Origin: Streptomyces sp. H39-S7
GTDB lineage: Bacteria > Actinomycetota > Actinomycetes > Streptomycetales > Streptomycetaceae
Assembly: GCF_027158205.1 (NCBI RefSeq)
Contig: NZ_JAPVLU010000006.1
Coordinates: forward strand, 124,001-188,000
Direction: 5' to 3'
DNA length: 64,000 nucleotides
Part shown: positions 21,664 to 29,213 of the stretch, piece by piece
How positions within the stretch are numbered: the stretch's first letter is position 1
How the letters are laid out: each line of letters begins with the position of its first letter
Made by a program: the position numbers and the translations under genes
Notes under the pieces: model-generated
The model's database searches: none
Seen by the model: the letters and a program-made list of their open reading frames with translations, nothing else
Told to the model about the DNA's origin: nothing

Positions 21664-22692
21664 TCAGCCCGCCTTCTTCACGAACTCCGAGGTGTAGGTC
21701 TTCTCCAGGTTCACCGTGGCGTGCTTCAGGGCCGGGTTGAACGCCTTGAGGACCTTCTCGACGGTCTGCGGACCGTCGGCCGGCATGACCCCGTCCTTGG
21801 TGAACATCGGCAGCGTGGCCTTGATCGACTGGGCGTACAGCTCCTTGCCGCCCTGCGCGTAGTCGGCCGGCATCTTCGCGGCGATCTCCTCCGGGGTGTG
21901 CGTGGACATCCAGGCGAGCGTCTTGACGAAGGCGTTGGCCATCTTCTGCACCGTCGCCTTGTGACCGTTCACCCAGTCGGTGCTCATGTAGAGGCTGGAC
22001 GACGGGTAGAGGCCGCCGAGCGCCGCCTTCGAGCCCTCGGGGGTGCGCATGTCGTACAGCACCTTGCCGATGCCCTTGTCGAGGATCTGCGCGACGGTCG
22101 GGTCGGTGGTCATCCCGCCCTGGATCGAGCCCTGCTGCAGAGCGGCGATGAACGTCTGGCCCGCGCCCACGGCGACCGGGGTGAAGTCGCTGACCTCCAC
22201 GCCGTTCTTGACGGCGAGGTACTTGGTGAGGAAGTCGGTGGAGGAGCCGAGGCCCGTCACGCCGAGCTTCTTGCCCTTGAAGTCCTTGGCGGAGGAGATG
22301 TCGCCGGCCGCCTTGGCGGAGACCACCTCGACCTCACCGGGAGCCTGCGCCAGTTGCACCACGGACTCGATGATCTTTCCCTTGACCTGGAGGTCGAGGG
22401 TGTGGTCGTAGAACCCGACGACGCCCTGCACGTCGCCGGAGACCAGCGAGGTGGTGGCCTGCACACCGGCCGGCTCGGTGAGCAGCGTGACGTCCAGGCC
22501 CTCGGCCTTGAAGAAGCCGAGCTGCTGGGTGAGCATCGCGGGCAGGTAGATGACCTTGTCGAGGCCGCCCACCATGACCTTGACCTTGCCGTTGTCGCCC
22601 GCCGCCGAGGAGTCGCTGCCGCAGGCGGTGAGGGTGGTGAGGGCGAGCGCTCCGGCGACCGCGGCCGCCGGGATTCTGGCCATGCTGCGCAT
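21664..22692 (-). CDS. ABC transporter substrate-binding lipoprotein (NMT1/SsuA type)
   Basis: A 342-aa extracellular solute-binding lipoprotein. The N-terminal signal ends in the lipobox LTAC, followed by GSDSSAAG. The mature part is of the NMT1/THI5-SsuA class (LPAMLTQQLGFFKAEGLDV, VGFYDHTLDLQ, GVTGLGSSTDFLTKYL), whose members bind nitrate, sulfonates, thiamine pyrimidine or riboflavin precursors; I cannot choose among them. The ATG at 22692 has AAGGAC upstream. It is the last gene of the operon with permease and ATPase, all on the minus strand. Confidence 0.88.
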   Translation of the reverse strand: MRSMARIPAAAVAGALALTTLTACGSDSSAAGDNGKVKVMVGGLDKVIYLPAMLTQQLGFFKAEGLDVTLLTEPAGVQATTSLVSGDVQGVVGFYDHTLDLQVKGKIIESVVQLAQAPGEVEVVSAKAAGDISSAKDFKGKKLGVTGLGSSTDFLTKYLAVKNGVEVSDFTPVAVGAGQTFIAALQQGSIQGGMTTDPTVAQILDKGIGKVLYDMRTPEGSKAALGGLYPSSSLYMSTDWVNGHKATVQKMANAFVKTLAWMSTHTPEEIAAKMPADYAQGGKELYAQSIKATLPMFTKDGVMPADGPQTVEKVLKAFNPALKHATVNLEKTYTSEFVKKAG

Positions 22693-22775: not shown

Positions 22776-23684
22776 TCAGCGTTCGGAGCCGGGCTCGGCC
22801 GGCTTCCAGCGGAACAGCCGCTTCTCGCCGAACGTCAGCAGCCCCTCGGCCAGCAGTGCCACCACGGCGAGGATCACCATGGCCGCGTACACCCCGGCCG
22901 CGTTGAAGGTGCCCTGCGAGGCGGAGACCAGCAGGCCGAGGCCCTTGGTCGCGCCGATGTACTCGCCGACGATGGCGCCGATCAGCGCGAAGCCGAATGA
23001 GACGTGCAGGCTCGTGAAGATCCATGACGTGGCGGACGGGATGACGACCTGCAGCGTCACGCGGCGGTTGCTCGCGCCGAGGATGCGGGCGTTGGAGACC
23101 AGGTTGCGGTCCACCTCCCTGGCCCCCTGGAAGGCGTTGAAGAACACCGGGAAGAAGACCAGGACGACTGCGGACGCGACCTTCGAGGCCGGGCCGAGGC
23201 CGAACCAGATGAGGAAGATGGGCGCCAGCACGATACGCGGCAGCGCGTTGAGGACCTTGATGTACGGGCCGAGCACGTCGGCCAGGAAGCGCACCCGGCC
23301 GAGCGCGATGCCCAGCAGCACGCCGGCGATGACGCCGATGATCCAGCCGAACAGCGCCTCGTAGAGCGTGTACCAGATCTGCTCCCACAGGGAGCCCTGC
23401 GCGGTGCCGTGCAGCGCCCACTCCCGGATCTGGTCCCAGATCTTCGACGGCATCGAGAAGTTGAACGGGTCGATGATCCCGGCGCGGGCGAACCACTCCC
23501 ACAGGCCGATCACGGCGACGAGCAGCAGCAGACGGGTTCCGTAGACCAGGACCCGGCGGTTGCGGGCGGCCCGGGCCCGGGCCGCGGTGCGCTCGGTGGA
23601 AGCCTTGGCGGGACGGGCCTCGGCGGGCCGGTCCCTGGTGGCCACGGCGTCGGTGACGATGCTGGTGACGGGTTCAGGCGGCAT
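22776..23684 (-). CDS. ABC transporter permease (SsuC/TauC type)
   Basis: A 302-aa inner-membrane permease with a cytoplasmic Arg/Ala-rich N-terminus and about six membrane segments. The coupling-helix motif reads LGASNRRVTLQVVIPSATS, as in the SsuC/TauC/NrtB class. Its start overlaps the ATPase stop by 11 nt (23674-23684), so the two are translationally linked. It pairs with the lipoprotein encoded downstream. Confidence 0.9.
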   Translation of the reverse strand: MPPEPVTSIVTDAVATRDRPAEARPAKASTERTAARARAARNRRVLVYGTRLLLLVAVIGLWEWFARAGIIDPFNFSMPSKIWDQIREWALHGTAQGSLWEQIWYTLYEALFGWIIGVIAGVLLGIALGRVRFLADVLGPYIKVLNALPRIVLAPIFLIWFGLGPASKVASAVVLVFFPVFFNAFQGAREVDRNLVSNARILGASNRRVTLQVVIPSATSWIFTSLHVSFGFALIGAIVGEYIGATKGLGLLVSASQGTFNAAGVYAAMVILAVVALLAEGLLTFGEKRLFRWKPAEPGSER

Positions 23685-24489
23685 TGCCGGCTCCCCTCTC
23701 GCGGGTGATGCGGACCTCTTCGCCCAGCGAGGACCAGATCTCCCGGTAGATCTCCAGGAACCGCGGTTCCATCCGGACCTCCTCGACCTTGCGCGGCCGC
23801 GGCAGGTCGATCGTGAAGACCTCCTTGACGGTCGCGGGTCCGGCGGTCATGACCACGACCTTGTCGGCGAGGGCGATGGACTCCTCCAGGTCGTGCGTGA
23901 CGAACACGACCGAGGAGCCGGTGCCCGCCCACAGGTCCAGCAGTTCGTCCGACATCAGCGCCCGGGTCTGGACGTCGAGCGCCGAGAAGGGCTCGTCCAT
24001 CAGCAGGATCTCGGGGTCGTTGACGAAGGTCGCGGCAAGCGCCACGCGCTTGCGCTGGCCGCCCGACAGCTGGTGCGGATAGCGGTCCTCGAAGGACGTC
24101 AGGCCCACCCGGGCCAGCCACTCCCGGGCCCGTTCCCTCGCCTCGGCCTTGGGCACGCCGCGGAAGCGGGGCCCCGCCATCACGTTGGACAGCACGGTGC
24201 GCCAGGGGAAGACGGCGTCCTGCTGGAAGACGAACCCGACCTTGTCGCCGATGCCGCGGACCGGCTCACCGGCCACCAGCACCTCGCCCTCGGTCGGCTC
24301 CTCCAACCCGCTGACCAGGGTCAGCGTCGTGGACTTGCCGCATCCGGTCGGTCCGACGACCGCGACGAACTCGCCGCGCTCCACGGTCAGGTCCAGATCA
24401 CGTACGGCGGTGTGCAGCGCCCCGGACGGGGTCCGGAACGCCTTGCTCGCCCCCCGCAACTCAATGGCGGGACTCGTTTGACTGCTCAT
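23674..24489 (-). CDS. ABC transporter ATP-binding protein (SsuB/TauB type)
   Basis: A 271-aa ATPase. Walker A is GPTGCGKST, the signature is LSGGQRKRVALA and Walker B is ILLMDEPFSALD, with the switch histidine in VFVTHDLEES. It powers the importer formed with the downstream permease and lipoprotein. The ATG at 24489 begins the conserved part; an in-frame extension upstream covers the regulatory region shared with the divergent histidine kinase gene and is unlikely to be translated. Confidence 0.92.
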   Translation of the reverse strand: MSSQTSPAIELRGASKAFRTPSGALHTAVRDLDLTVERGEFVAVVGPTGCGKSTTLTLVSGLEEPTEGEVLVAGEPVRGIGDKVGFVFQQDAVFPWRTVLSNVMAGPRFRGVPKAEARERAREWLARVGLTSFEDRYPHQLSGGQRKRVALAATFVNDPEILLMDEPFSALDVQTRALMSDELLDLWAGTGSSVVFVTHDLEESIALADKVVVMTAGPATVKEVFTIDLPRPRKVEEVRMEPRFLEIYREIWSSLGEEVRITRERGAGNAA

Positions 24490-24530: not shown

Positions 24531-24583
24531 TTGTGAGCACAGGGCGCCTTCTGCTCACAACCGCTGTTCTGCTCGTTCTGCTC
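24531..24583. promoter_or_regulatory. Candidate operator: two-turn inverted repeat plus triple TTCTGCTC
   Basis: TTGTGAGCA (24531-24539) and TGCTCACAA (24552-24560) form a perfect 9-bp inverted repeat with centres 21 bp apart, two helical turns. TTCTGCTC occurs at 24549, 24567 and 24576, i.e. 18 and 9 bp apart. All lie between the ABC operon and the divergent histidine-kinase gene. This is a likely binding site for the neighbouring response regulator; the assignment is inferred. Confidence 0.55.
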
Positions 24584-24733
24584 GCTCCCGCACAACGAAA
24601 GCGAAACGGAGGCTGTGCATCCGCCTCTGTGGCGTTTACGTTGCGTTCACACCGGGATACGGCACGGTCCTCGCCTGCGAAACGGTGCATATCGCTCTAT
24701 AACCCCGCACACCACTCAGCAGAAGGAGACCGC

Positions 24734-26398
24734 ATGCGCATCCGGTGGCCGCGTCGCGTCTCCGCACAGGTCCTGCTGACCCAGGTCGCGATCACCACGG
24801 GTGTCACCGTGCTGGCCACCGCGCTCTTCCTCGCACCGCTGAGCCACCAGCTCGACGACCAGGCGATGCGCCGCGCCCTGTCCATCGCGCAGACCGCCGC
24901 GGCGGAACCGCGGCTCGCCGAGGCACTCCTCGCCTCGGAGCCCACCCCCGACGGCCCGGTCCAGGCCGAGGCCGAGCGGATCCGCCTCGCTACCCGGGCC
25001 GAGTACGTCGTCGTGATGGATCTCCACGGAACGCGCTGGTCGCACACCACACAGGACCGGATCGGCGAGCACGTCTCCACCGACCCCGGCGGTGCGCTGG
25101 CCGGCGAGGACGTCATGCAGATCGACAACGGCACCCTGGGCCGCAGCGCCCGGGGCAAGACGCCGCTGCGCGACAGCGGCGGCCGGATCGTCGGCGCGGT
25201 CTCCGTGGGCATCGCCTACGACAGCGTCCGCGAGCGGCTGCTCGGCGCGGTCCCCGGGCTGCTGCTGTACGCGGCCGCCGCGCTCGCGGTGGGTGTGCTG
25301 GCCGCGATCGGCGGTTCCCGCAGGCTGCAGCGCCGCACCCACGGACTCGCGTTCGCCGACATCTCCTCGCTGCTCGACGAGCGCGAGGCGATGCTGCACG
25401 GCATCCGGGAGGGCGTCGTGGCGCTCGACCGGCAGGGCAGGGTCCGGCTCGTCAACGACGAGGCCGGCCGGCTGCTCGGACTCGGCCCCGACGCCACCGG
25501 ACACGTCCTGGACGACGTGCTGCCGCCGGGCCGCACGGCGGACGTCCTGACCGGCCGGGTCGAGGGCACCGACCTGCTGACGGTGAGCGGCGGCCGGGTA
25601 CTGGTCACCAACCGGATGCCGACCGCCGACGGCGGCGCGGTCGCCACCTTGCGGGACCGCACCGAACTGGAGCTGCTCGGCCGGGAGCTGGACAGCACGC
25701 ACGGGTTGCTGGACGCGCTCCGTGCCCAGGACCACGAACACGCCAACCGGCTGCACACCCTGCTGGGCCTGCTGGAACTGGGGATGCACGACGAGGCGGT
25801 GGAGTTCGTCGTGGAGGTCGCCGACACCCACCGTTCCTCCGCGGAGCAGATCGCCGAACAGGTGCGGGACCCCCTGCTGGCGGCCCTGCTGGTCGGCAAG
25901 GCGGCCATCGCCGCCGAGCGCGGGGTGGCCCTGCGGATCTCCGCCGCGACCGGGCTGCCCGACCGGGTCGTCGACCCCCGCGACCTGGTGACCGTGCTGG
26001 GCAACCTCATCGACAACGCCCTCGACGCGGCGGCGGCGCACCGCACCGCCGACTCCTTCGTGGAGGTCGAGCTGCGGACCGAGGAGGGGACGACCGCCGT
26101 CCTGCGGGTCTCCGACACCGGCCCCGGGGTGCCGCCCGAGGCGCGCGACCTCATCTTCACCGAGGGCTGGTCCACGAAGGAGCGCCCCGCCCACCGGGGC
26201 CGGGGGCTGGGCCTGGCGCTGGTCAGACGGCTCGCCGAACGGTACGGCGGCATCGCCCGGGTCACCGCCCGTGCGGGCGGCGGCGCGGTCTTCACCGTGG
26301 TGCTGCCCGAGTCCCTGGTCGCGGAGGACGTCCAGGGCTGCCGCCCCGGCGCAGCCGATCACTCCACGCAGCTCGTCGCCACAAGGGAGACACGATGA
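24734..26398 (+). CDS. CitA/DpiB-type sensor histidine kinase
   Basis: A 554-aa membrane sensor kinase. A first membrane helix (about residues 11-34) and a second near 172-192 flank an extracellular PAS-like sensor. A cytoplasmic PAS domain follows (about 215-310). The phosphoacceptor H334 is in LRAQDHEHANRLH, the CitA/DcuS-type box, and an HATPase domain has NLIDNALDAA, DTGPGVPP and GRGLGLALV. The family senses carboxylates; whether this one does is unknown. The ATG at 24734 follows AGAAGGAGAC. The stop overlaps the response-regulator start by 4 nt. Confidence 0.92.
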   Translation: MRIRWPRRVSAQVLLTQVAITTGVTVLATALFLAPLSHQLDDQAMRRALSIAQTAAAEPRLAEALLASEPTPDGPVQAEAERIRLATRAEYVVVMDLHGTRWSHTTQDRIGEHVSTDPGGALAGEDVMQIDNGTLGRSARGKTPLRDSGGRIVGAVSVGIAYDSVRERLLGAVPGLLLYAAAALAVGVLAAIGGSRRLQRRTHGLAFADISSLLDEREAMLHGIREGVVALDRQGRVRLVNDEAGRLLGLGPDATGHVLDDVLPPGRTADVLTGRVEGTDLLTVSGGRVLVTNRMPTADGGAVATLRDRTELELLGRELDSTHGLLDALRAQDHEHANRLHTLLGLLELGMHDEAVEFVVEVADTHRSSAEQIAEQVRDPLLAALLVGKAAIAAERGVALRISAATGLPDRVVDPRDLVTVLGNLIDNALDAAAAHRTADSFVEVELRTEEGTTAVLRVSDTGPGVPPEARDLIFTEGWSTKERPAHRGRGLGLALVRRLAERYGGIARVTARAGGGAVFTVVLPESLVAEDVQGCRPGAADHSTQLVATRETR

Positions 26399-27087
26399 TC
26401 GAGGTACTGGTCGTGGACGACGACTTCCGCGTCGCCGAGATCAACGCGGCCTACGTGGCCAAGGTCCCCGGCTTCCGGGTGGCCGGCCGGGCCCACACGG
26501 CCGCCCACGCGCTGGCGACCCTGGAGCGCACCCGGATCGACCTGATCCTGCTGGACCACTATCTTCCCGACGAGACGGGACTGACGCTGGTGCGGCGGCT
26601 GCACCAGCTCGGCCACCACGCCGACGTGATCATGGTGACCGCCGCCCGCGACGTCGCGACCGTCCAGGCCGCGATGCGGTACGGCGCCCTGCAGTACCTG
26701 GTCAAGCCGTTCACCTTCGCCGGGCTGCGCGCCAAGCTCGACGGGTACGCGGCGCTGCGCCGCACCCTGGACGGGGTCGGCGGGGCCGGTCAGGCCGGCC
26801 AGGAGCAGGTCGACCGGATCTTCGGTGCGCTGCGGACGGCGGGAGCGGCCTCCGCCGAACTGCCCAAGGGGCACTCGGCGCCGACCGCCGACCTGATACG
26901 CCGGGTGCTGCGCGAGGCCGGACACCCGCTCTCCGCGCAGGAGGTCGCCGAACTGGCCGGGCTGAGCCGCTCCACGGCGCAGCGCTATCTGAAGTACCTG
27001 GAGCAGGCCGGGCGGATCGGCCTGACCCTCAAGTACGGCGACACCGGCCGCCCCGAGCACCGCTACGCCTGGGCGGCGGCGGACTGA
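26395..27087 (+). CDS. CitB/DpiA-type response regulator
   Basis: A 230-aa response regulator. The receiver domain has acidic D8-D10, phosphoacceptor D54 (LILLDHYLPDETG), T82 and K104 (LVKPF). The C-terminal winged-helix region (about 165-230; EVAELAGLSRSTAQRYLKYL) is of the CitB type. The ATGA overlap with the kinase indicates tight co-expression. The likely targets are the divergent ABC operon, the kinase operon itself, or the convergent symporter pair, in that order of proximity to the candidate operator. Confidence 0.93.
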   Translation: MIEVLVVDDDFRVAEINAAYVAKVPGFRVAGRAHTAAHALATLERTRIDLILLDHYLPDETGLTLVRRLHQLGHHADVIMVTAARDVATVQAAMRYGALQYLVKPFTFAGLRAKLDGYAALRRTLDGVGGAGQAGQEQVDRIFGALRTAGAASAELPKGHSAPTADLIRRVLREAGHPLSAQEVAELAGLSRSTAQRYLKYLEQAGRIGLTLKYGDTGRPEHRYAWAAAD

Positions 27088-27117: not shown

Positions 27118-28743
27118 TCACACCGCTCCCGCACCGGTGAGGGAACGGACCTCCGTCTCCGCGTACTTGCCCGCGTCCCCCGGTTCCGGGAAGAGCACGG
27201 TGCCCAGCCAGCCGGCCAGGAAGCCCAGCGGGATGGAGACCAGTCCCGGGTTCTCCAGCGGGAAGAGATGGAAGTCCATACCGGGGAAGAGCGCGTCGGG
27301 GCGTCCGGAGACAACGGGCGACAGCACGACGAGGAGCAGCGCGGGGACCAGTCCGCCGTAGATGGCGCAGACCGTTCCCCTGGTGGTGAACCGGGGCCAG
27401 AACAGGGAGAACAGCAGCGCCGGCAGATTCGCCGAGGCGGCCACCGCGAAGGCGAGGCCCACCAGGAAGGCGATGTTCTGCCCCTGCGCGAACAGGCTCA
27501 GCGCGATGGCCACCGCACCGATCCCGGCCGCGGCGAACCGCGCCACCCGCACTTCGTCGTTCCCGGTCGCGGGGCCCGCGTGCTTCCCACTGCGGCGCAG
27601 GGTGGCGTACAGGTCGTGCGCGACGGAGGCGGACGAGGCCAGCGTGATGCCGGCGACCACCGCCAGGATCGTGGCGAAAGCCACCGCGCCGACGACGGCG
27701 AACAGAACCGTTCCGCCTGTGGAGCCCGCTCCCCCGCCCAGATCCTGGGCCAGCAGCGGCACGGCGGTGTTGCCGGCCGCATTGGAGGTGCGCACGGCGT
27801 CCGAGCCCACGACGGCCGCGGCGCCGAAGCCGAGGACGATCGTCATCAGGTAGAAGGAGCCGATCAGCCCGATCGCCCAGACCACCGACCGGCGGGCGGA
27901 GCGGGCGGTGGGCACCGTGTAGAAGCGCGACAGGATGTGCGGCAGCCCGGCCGTGCCGAGCACCAGGGCGATCCCGAGGCTGATGAAGTCCAGCTTCGAG
28001 GTCCAGCTCCCGCCGTACTTGAGGCCGGGGGCCAGGAAGGCGCTGCCGTGTCCGCTGCCGGCCGCCGCGGAGCGCAGCAGGCCGTTCAGGTCGCCGTGGA
28101 AGCGGATCAGCACCAGCACGACGAGCGTGATGGTGCCGCCCATCAGCAGCACGGTCTTGACGATCTGGATCCAGGTCGTCGCGCGCATGCCGCCGAACGA
28201 CACGTAGACCACCATCAGACCGCCGACCCCGATCACCGTCCAGGTACGGGCCGCGCCGCCCTGGCCGCCGAGCAGGAGCGCCACCAGGCTGCTCGCGCCG
28301 ACCATCTGCGCGACCAGGTAGAGCACCGAGACGATGACCGAGGAGGTGCCGGCTGCCAGCCGCACGGGCCGCTGCCGCATCCGGGCGGACAGGACGTCGG
28401 CGAGGGTGTAGCGGCCGCAGTTGCGCACGAGCTCCGCGACCAGCAGGAGCACGACGAGCCACGCGACGAGGAAGCCGACCGAGTACAGCAGGCCGTCGTA
28501 GCCGAAGAGCGCGATGAGGCCGGAGATGCCGAGGAAGGACGCCGCCGACATGTAGTCGCCCGCGATGGCGAAGCCGTTCTCCATGGGGGAGAAGAGCCGG
28601 CCACCGGCGAAGAACTCCACCGAGGAGCTGCGGCGCCGGCCCGCCCAGGCGGTGATGGCCAGGGTGACGGAGACGAAGATCGTGAACAGGACGAGGGCGA
28701 GCCCTTGGTGCTCGTTCGCCGGATCTGCCAGGTACCGGACCAT
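27118..28743 (-). CDS. Cation/acetate symporter (sodium:solute symporter family)
   Basis: A 541-aa membrane transporter of the SSS family with about 13 membrane segments. Recognisable ActP-like blocks are VEFFAGGRLFSPMENGFAIA, AGDYMSAASFLGISG, SFGGMRATTWIQIVK and GTAGLPHILSRFYTVP. It probably imports acetate or another short carboxylate with Na+ or H+. Its ATG overlaps the stop of the DUF485 gene by one base (TGATG), the standard yjcH-actP arrangement. It converges on the CitA/CitB operon with 30 nt between stops. Confidence 0.88.
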   Translation of the reverse strand: MVRYLADPANEHQGLALVLFTIFVSVTLAITAWAGRRRSSSVEFFAGGRLFSPMENGFAIAGDYMSAASFLGISGLIALFGYDGLLYSVGFLVAWLVVLLLVAELVRNCGRYTLADVLSARMRQRPVRLAAGTSSVIVSVLYLVAQMVGASSLVALLLGGQGGAARTWTVIGVGGLMVVYVSFGGMRATTWIQIVKTVLLMGGTITLVVLVLIRFHGDLNGLLRSAAAGSGHGSAFLAPGLKYGGSWTSKLDFISLGIALVLGTAGLPHILSRFYTVPTARSARRSVVWAIGLIGSFYLMTIVLGFGAAAVVGSDAVRTSNAAGNTAVPLLAQDLGGGAGSTGGTVLFAVVGAVAFATILAVVAGITLASSASVAHDLYATLRRSGKHAGPATGNDEVRVARFAAAGIGAVAIALSLFAQGQNIAFLVGLAFAVAASANLPALLFSLFWPRFTTRGTVCAIYGGLVPALLLVVLSPVVSGRPDALFPGMDFHLFPLENPGLVSIPLGFLAGWLGTVLFPEPGDAGKYAETEVRSLTGAGAV

Positions 28744-29213
28744 CAGCGCATCCGCTCCTGGGTGTCCCAGCGCAGGTCGAGCGCGGCCCGGTCCCTGCGC
28801 AGCCGTGCGTGCCGCGAGTAGGCCCAGGTCAGCAGGAACGTCGTGGCGAACTGCCCGAGCCCCGCGACCATCGCCACGTTGAGCTCCCCGGCCACCGGCC
28901 GGCTCATCAGGCCCGGCGCCACCGTGGCCGCCACCACATAGAGCAGGTACCAGGCGAGGAACGCCGCGGTCGCCGGGAAGGCGAACCGGCGGTACCGGCC
29001 CCGCACCTCCTGGAACGCGGCGCTCCGCTGCACTTCCAGGTAGATCGCGGCCCGGTCCCGCTCCGCTCCCGGGACGGGCGCCGCGGAGGGCGCCGGCACG
29101 GGCGCGGACGGCGGAGCCGTCGGGTCCGGAGCCCAGAGCCCGGCGGCCAGGGCGTCGTACCAGGGGTCGTCCACCCGCAGCGCACCCGGGTCGCCCCCGT
29201 CGTGCTTGTCCAC
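28743..29213 (-). CDS. DUF485 family membrane protein
   Basis: A 156-aa small membrane protein with a long Pro/Ala-rich cytoplasmic N-terminus and two membrane segments (AFPATAAFLAWYLLYVVAAT and VAMVAGLGQFATTFLLTWAY), matching the DUF485 proteins that accompany acetate permeases. The GTG at 29213 follows GAGGAG. It is coupled to the symporter gene by a TGATG overlap and probably assists that transporter. Confidence 0.87.
   Translation of the reverse strand: MDKHDGGDPGALRVDDPWYDALAAGLWAPDPTAPPSAPVPAPSAAPVPGAERDRAAIYLEVQRSAAFQEVRGRYRRFAFPATAAFLAWYLLYVVAATVAPGLMSRPVAGELNVAMVAGLGQFATTFLLTWAYSRHARLRRDRAALDLRWDTQERMR

Follow-up and report, generated by a model that had tools for sequence, protein, structure and literature searches.

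The window, by which we mean the whole 64-kb stretch of DNA analysed, carries the genes of an ABC importer on the minus strand and, diverging from them on the plus strand, those of a CitA/DcuS-type sensor kinase and a CitB/DcuR-type response regulator (Table 1). Between the two units lies a set of short repeats. The original prediction had placed these repeats in a divergent intergenic region, and the start codons of the ABC ATPase (24489-24487, minus strand) and of the kinase (ATG at 24734, plus strand) bear this out. Its account of the repeats themselves, a perfect 9-bp inverted repeat and three TTCTGCTC units spaced by 18 and 9 bp, is exact. The arms of the inverted repeat lie 21 bp apart from start to start, or about two turns.

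Table 1. Features of the locus, by position in the window.
Feature	Position	Strand	Basis
NMT1-family substrate-binding protein	21664..22683	-	PF09084, 72.1 bits (cut-off 20.5); closest solved chain 3qsl, E 1e-50
ABC importer permease	22776..23684	-	PF00528
ABC importer ATPase	23674..24489	-	PF00005
Predicted -10 box (TAACGT) of the ABC operon, 8 nt from the start codon	24498..24503	-	Ortholog conservation
Perfect 9-bp inverted repeat, arms 24531-24539 (TTGTGAGCA) and 24552-24560 (TGCTCACAA)	24531..24560		9/9 complementary
Weaker inverted 8-mer copy towards the ABC promoter (CTGTGCTC on the minus strand)	24536..24543	-	Ortholog comparison
Third TTCTGCTC copy, 18 bp upstream of the core, overlapping the right half of the inverted repeat	24549..24556	+	TTSTGCNC in 20/20 orthologs
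Predicted operator core: two TTCTGCTC 8-mers at a 9-bp period (24567-24574, 24576-24583)	24567..24583	+	Conservation in 20 orthologs; pattern scores at ABC-linked loci
Conserved block ACAACGAAAGCGAAACGG between predicted operator and -35	24592..24609		1.64 bits/column, 20 orthologs
Predicted citAB promoter: TGTGCA, 17 bp, TACGTT	24614..24642	+	Ortholog conservation
CitA/DcuS-type sensor kinase (sCache, PAS, SpoOB-type helix, HATPase)	24734..26398	+	PF17203, PF00989, PF14689, PF02518, all above cut-off
CitB/DcuR-type response regulator	26395..27087	+	Domain profiles; recognition helix GLSRSTAQRYLKYL
MctC-type monocarboxylate symporter, convergent neighbour	27118..28750 (start approximate)	-	NF058657, 743.9 bits (cut-off 670)

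The importer belongs to the NMT1-like class by its matches to PF09084, PF13379, PF00528 and PF00005. It resembles the NMT1/SsuA/TauA-type importers in its PF09084 binding protein, TauB/SsuB-like ATPase and TauC/SsuC-like permease, but the NCBIfam matches of these proteins fall below their cut-offs, including that of the binding protein to the SsuA subfamily (TIGR01728, 69.8 bits against a cut-off of 163.5). Of the label “NMT1/SsuA-type” that had been given to it, the first half therefore stands and the second is loose. The sensor has the domains of the CitA/DcuS type, and its sCache domain aligns with the solved CitA and DcuS domains. The regulator has a receiver domain; its match to HTH_64 (DpiA-like) reaches 26.0 bits against a cut-off of 27, HTH_IclR lies above its cut-off, and the DcuR model scores 152 bits against 262. 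Sensor and regulator best match the DcuS/MalK, DcuR and DpiA models, yet stay below the curated cut-offs of those models. The E. coli DcuSR and DpiBA systems themselves have different targets.

The repeats did not arise by chance. Dinucleotide shuffling of the window, repeated 100 times, produced neither composite pattern, even when three mismatches were allowed, and TTCTGCTC-N10-TTCTGCTC and the exact tandem TTNTGCNCRTTNTGCTC each occur once in the 9.54-Mb genome, at this site. A regulon search across that genome likewise returned an exact match at this locus only; the five one-mismatch matches included no convincing promoter site, and three of them overlap likely coding ORFs.

We compared the region among 35 genomes of the genus, the window's own counted. 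The intergenic DNA is found in 20, a regulator ortholog (at least 85% identity) is found in exactly the same 20, and these make up a 20-row alignment of the intergenic region. The most conserved element is the tandem repeat, TTCTGCTC-G-TTYTGCKC, with 14 of 17 columns invariant and a mean of 1.88 bits per column. The arms of the inverted repeat reach 1.61 and 1.67 bits per column, and their intervening spacer reaches 1.33; over 60 nt beyond the promoter the figure is 0.65, and none of those 60 columns is invariant. None of the 20 orthologs departs from the six fixed positions of the third 8-mer, at 24549; the inverted copy that faces the ABC genes keeps five of six in 14 orthologs and three of six in the other 6. 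Because same-genus genomes are related, conservation among these 20 alone overstates their independence. The nearest named regulators are those of Streptomyces sp. SPB162 (99%) and S. fildesensis (97%), followed by Actinacidiphila alni (89%). One genome (G030) has a decayed locus in which fragments of the binding protein and kinase abut, the regulator gene is split between frames and the intergenic region is gone.

Phylogenetic footprinting, the check that had been proposed, thus finds the repeats conserved in relatives and favours a response-regulator operator, with a change of emphasis: the core is the tandem 8-mer and not the inverted repeat. The latter is perfect only in the window and its three nearest relatives (4 of 20) and retains 6-7 of 9 pairs in the other 16, and we reject it as the main element, the 9-bp tandem being the invariant part. 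The same figure bears on the notion that the inverted repeat forms an RNA hairpin, as an attenuator or leader element. Its arms can be extended to 15 nt that are 87% complementary and abut without a gap, which would suit such a structure. However, both predicted starts are downstream of the repeat, few orthologs keep perfect pairing, the sole Rfam match falls far below the gathering score and no terminator was found. We reject this reading, to which we would grant almost no probability.

Candidate promoters flank the repeats on both sides. In all 20 orthologs a minus-strand hexamer, TAnCGT or TAGCCT, is separated from the ABC start codon by 8 nt, and the predicted importer mRNA is therefore nearly leaderless. 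On the citAB side, the orthologs have a TGnnCA-like box followed by TACnTT, with a spacer of 17 in 18 genomes and of 18 in 2. A generic promoter scan of the region called no sigma-70 promoter, and the boxes thus rest on conservation. In 22 aligned paralogous regions a TGGGCA-like box comes just after the tandem repeat, which lies about 12 nt from this -35, with a CACAAT-like box some 17 bp further on; from sequence comparison, these boxes appear to be placed as would be expected of an activator's targets. The conserved block at 24592-24609 was not seen in the paralogous group. A further conserved block, 24632-24647, includes the predicted -10; the two blocks (CAACGAAAGCGAAACG and CGTTTACGTTGCGTTG) are imperfect inverted copies of each other on either side of the predicted -35, where a different regulator may bind.

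The repeat recurs beyond the orthologs, and it does so in company with the importer. A 15-mer search matched this locus and the DNA before two CitAB paralogs. Among 20 further stretches, 5 hold a CitAB pair beside the same type of ABC importer, four divergent and one (L086) co-directional. All five ABC-adjacent paralogous systems, whose regulators are 48-52% identical to the window's, have the tandem repeat before citA. From the genus and paralog material, in which the conserved core is TTnTGCnC-R-TTnTGCnC, a tandem 8-mer of 9-bp period, we fixed a test pattern, TTNTGCNCRTTNTGCNC, with 13 scored positions; CitAB paralogs without that ABC (13 scored) reach at most 10/13. We then tested this pattern on a further 60 loci, drawn from the family and class. 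The ABC importer is divergent from the kinase or the regulator in 38 of these, and all 38 regions score at least 11/13 (33 of them at least 12), each beating 200 dinucleotide shuffles (p<=0.01). Their regulators are 76-83% identical to the window's at 7 loci, 66-73% at 5 and 42-53% at 26, and 8 of the 38 lie outside the family, spread over six others. Among upstream regions of CitB-type systems with no ABC neighbour, 3 of 33 reach 11/13: L130 (13), L137 (13) and L167 (11). The regulators of L130 and L137 have a TAQR helix, and an MctC-type symporter precedes the kinase in L130, as does a like ORF in L137. Six further regions were left unscored, four in which tblastn found no kinase (L122, L147, L148 and L170), one at a contig end (L092) and the decayed locus (L097).

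Loci from named genomes behave alike. The ABC importer is divergent in 71 of 80, and all 71 score at least 12/13; of the nine others, it lies elsewhere in four and is absent from five, one of which scores 13. The 20-ortholog, 38-locus and 71-locus sets evidently share some genomes and are not fully independent. Since 38 of the 60 wider loci and 71 of the 80 named ones have the divergent arrangement, the pairing of CitAB with an NMT1-type importer is common, and the view that such coupling would be unusual does not hold.

These distributions also speak to whether the site might serve citAB alone, as an element of autoregulation, with the ABC operon under separate control and the divergence incidental. 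The tandem repeat does sit just upstream of the predicted citAB promoter, close to the -35 in the paralogs, and the ABC-facing 8-mer copy is weak. Yet in 17 of the 71 named loci the ABC faces a regulator without its kinase, and the repeat is kept in the region between them; loci without the ABC are mostly free of it, as the 3 of 33 and 1 of 5 attest. Further, in 12 of the 22 aligned paralogous regions (L089, L091, L113 and nine more) another repeat of 9 bp, TTGCGCnCR-TTGCG, is found 36-37 bp closer to the ABC genes than the main site. We therefore regard control of citAB alone as unlikely. Because the ABC-facing copy is weak (three of six positions in 6 of 20 orthologs), control of the importer is argued chiefly from the shared region and less from a strong site at its promoter.

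A regulator standing alone before the ABC importer is found in many Streptomyces, including L140, L141 and the 17 named loci (L225, L241, L244 and others). L140 and L141 have a second regulator, with an SRQTAQR helix, and a kinase beyond the far side of the ABC genes, and the DNA before that kinase is free of the repeat. The exact tandem repeat also occurs at 1501-1517 of both L181 and L182 (genomes G042 and G102), in a conserved stretch with a nested GAGCA..TGCTC palindrome between convergent genes, which we take to encode a P-type ATPase and a citrate synthase-like protein.

The recognition helix of the regulator varies with the repeat. All 44 ABC-linked regulators tested have TAQR in this helix. 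The 28 regulators without it carry [TS]ARR or TRR, fall on one side of a tree branch (support 94/89) and mostly have a different repeat. Presence of the ABC requires six changes on the regulator tree, and ten TAQR regulators have no facing ABC. Three TAQR-type CitAB pairs from other family members, L144, L145 and L149, adjoin no ABC, and the DNA ahead of their kinases lacks the repeat; searching their whole genomes for the exact pattern gave one match (inside an ORF), none and none. These three loci and the kinase-side pairs of L140 and L141, which lack the repeat, count against a strict rule tying TAQR to the repeat. A consensus-free test for 8-mers recurring at a lag of 9, with at least 7 of 8 identities, found them at 26 of the 38 ABC-linked loci and at 24 of 25 other CitB loci; lags of 8 and 10 gave 4-5 of 38 and 1-5 of 25, and lags 11, 18 and 19 gave elevated counts at ABC-linked loci as well (13, 15 and 18 of 38). 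Read by eye, the printed pairs from the other CitB loci comprise units like TTGTGTTC or TATTGGTC in 19 of 25, the six remaining best pairs being unrelated or of low complexity.

The arrangement has a precedent outside the actinomycetes. MaeR of Lactobacillus casei, a CitB-family regulator, binds three TTATTWAA 8-mers between maeP and maeK, of which the first two are separated by 1 bp, and phosphorylation enhances binding (PMC5457438). The window's locus has the same grammar: 8-mers at 24567 and 24576 with a period of 9 and a third copy at 24549, between a transporter and a two-component system with a CitB-type regulator. The systems differ in the sequence of the 8-mer, in the non-canonical MaeR-associated kinase and in the target of MaeKR, which is a malate utilisation cluster and not an ABC importer.

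Could a DNA-binding protein other than the adjacent regulator occupy the repeats? The case for binding by the regulator is built on sequence comparison, and the conserved blocks at 24592-24609 and 24632-24647 mean that more than one factor may act here. However, the repeat strictly co-occurs with the regulator, helix and operator vary together, and the grammar matches that of MaeR; we consider another protein quite improbable. On the strength of conservation, co-distribution with the regulator, the helix correlation and the MaeR grammar, we regard the site as very probably the operator through which the adjacent CitB-type response regulator acts on both the importer and the two-component units, presumably as an activator.

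For this shared operator we envisage the following sequence of events. An extracellular carboxylate would be recognised by the sCache domain of the CitA-type sensor, which would phosphorylate the regulator. The phosphorylated regulator would then bind the two 8-mers at 24567-24583 head-to-tail, making a third contact at 24549-24556 and contacting the inverted copy at 24536-24543 less strongly. We infer that the bound regulator would activate, rather than repress, the predicted citAB promoter to the right and that of the NMT1-type importer to the left, the leftward transcript starting so near its gene as to be almost leaderless.

The pocket of the sensor offers a hint as to the ligand. Residues R101, H104, R140 and K142 are the equivalents of R66, H69, R107 and K109 of K. 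pneumoniae CitA, so that all four citrate contacts are kept; exchange of those residues in CitA raises the citrate Kd 38- to over 300-fold, according to a review (PMC3353115). Among ABC-linked sensors, RHRK is present in all 12 from the window's group, and 30 of the 31 from the other group (one unread) have RHN with K, R or T as the fourth residue. Given these two types of pocket, we infer that the window's sensor probably recognises a carboxylate and that the other group probably recognises a different one. Beside citAB, 27118-29213 (minus strand) holds the MctC-type symporter and a short upstream ORF, presumably DUF485-like. An MctC homologue lies within the fetched DNA at 34 of the 71 named ABC loci, and no operator-like site, with up to 3 mismatches, was found near the start of the window's symporter operon.

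Among actinobacterial systems, CitAB of Corynebacterium glutamicum similarly adjoins and opposes a transporter gene (citH) and largely conserves the citrate-contact residues, but its targets are citH and tctCBA, with no NMT1 ABC (PMC3353115). The S. coelicolor pair SCO5828/SCO5829, suggested as orthologs by gene order, was rejected, the regulator being listed as NarL type in a review (PMC9739842). With the terms used, searches of listings and abstract openings in an open-licence library showed no paper on this operator or on the pairing of CitAB with NMT1-type importers.

Tentatively, and with rather less than even confidence, we propose that actinomycete CitB-type regulators share an operator code, a tandem 8-mer of 9-bp period whose inner base (TGC against TGG/TGT-like) tracks the helix (TAQR against [TS]ARR). 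The TGC/TAQ branch would govern a large group of NMT1-type carboxylate importers of two ligand types, the sensor pocket being RHRK for the window's group and, through exchange of R for N, RHNK-like for the second. The MaeR grammar, the different 8-mer and the listing of the C. glutamicum CitB motif as not identified in a review (PMC3353115) point to a MaeR-style operator serving NMT1-type ABC importers across actinomycetes. This amounts to a concrete, class-wide operator prediction for the regulator family. It would also put a large set of NMT1-type importers under a sensor with a readable pocket. The ligand of that sensor should be, or resemble, the cargo of the importer, and the question of what these importers carry thereby becomes testable.
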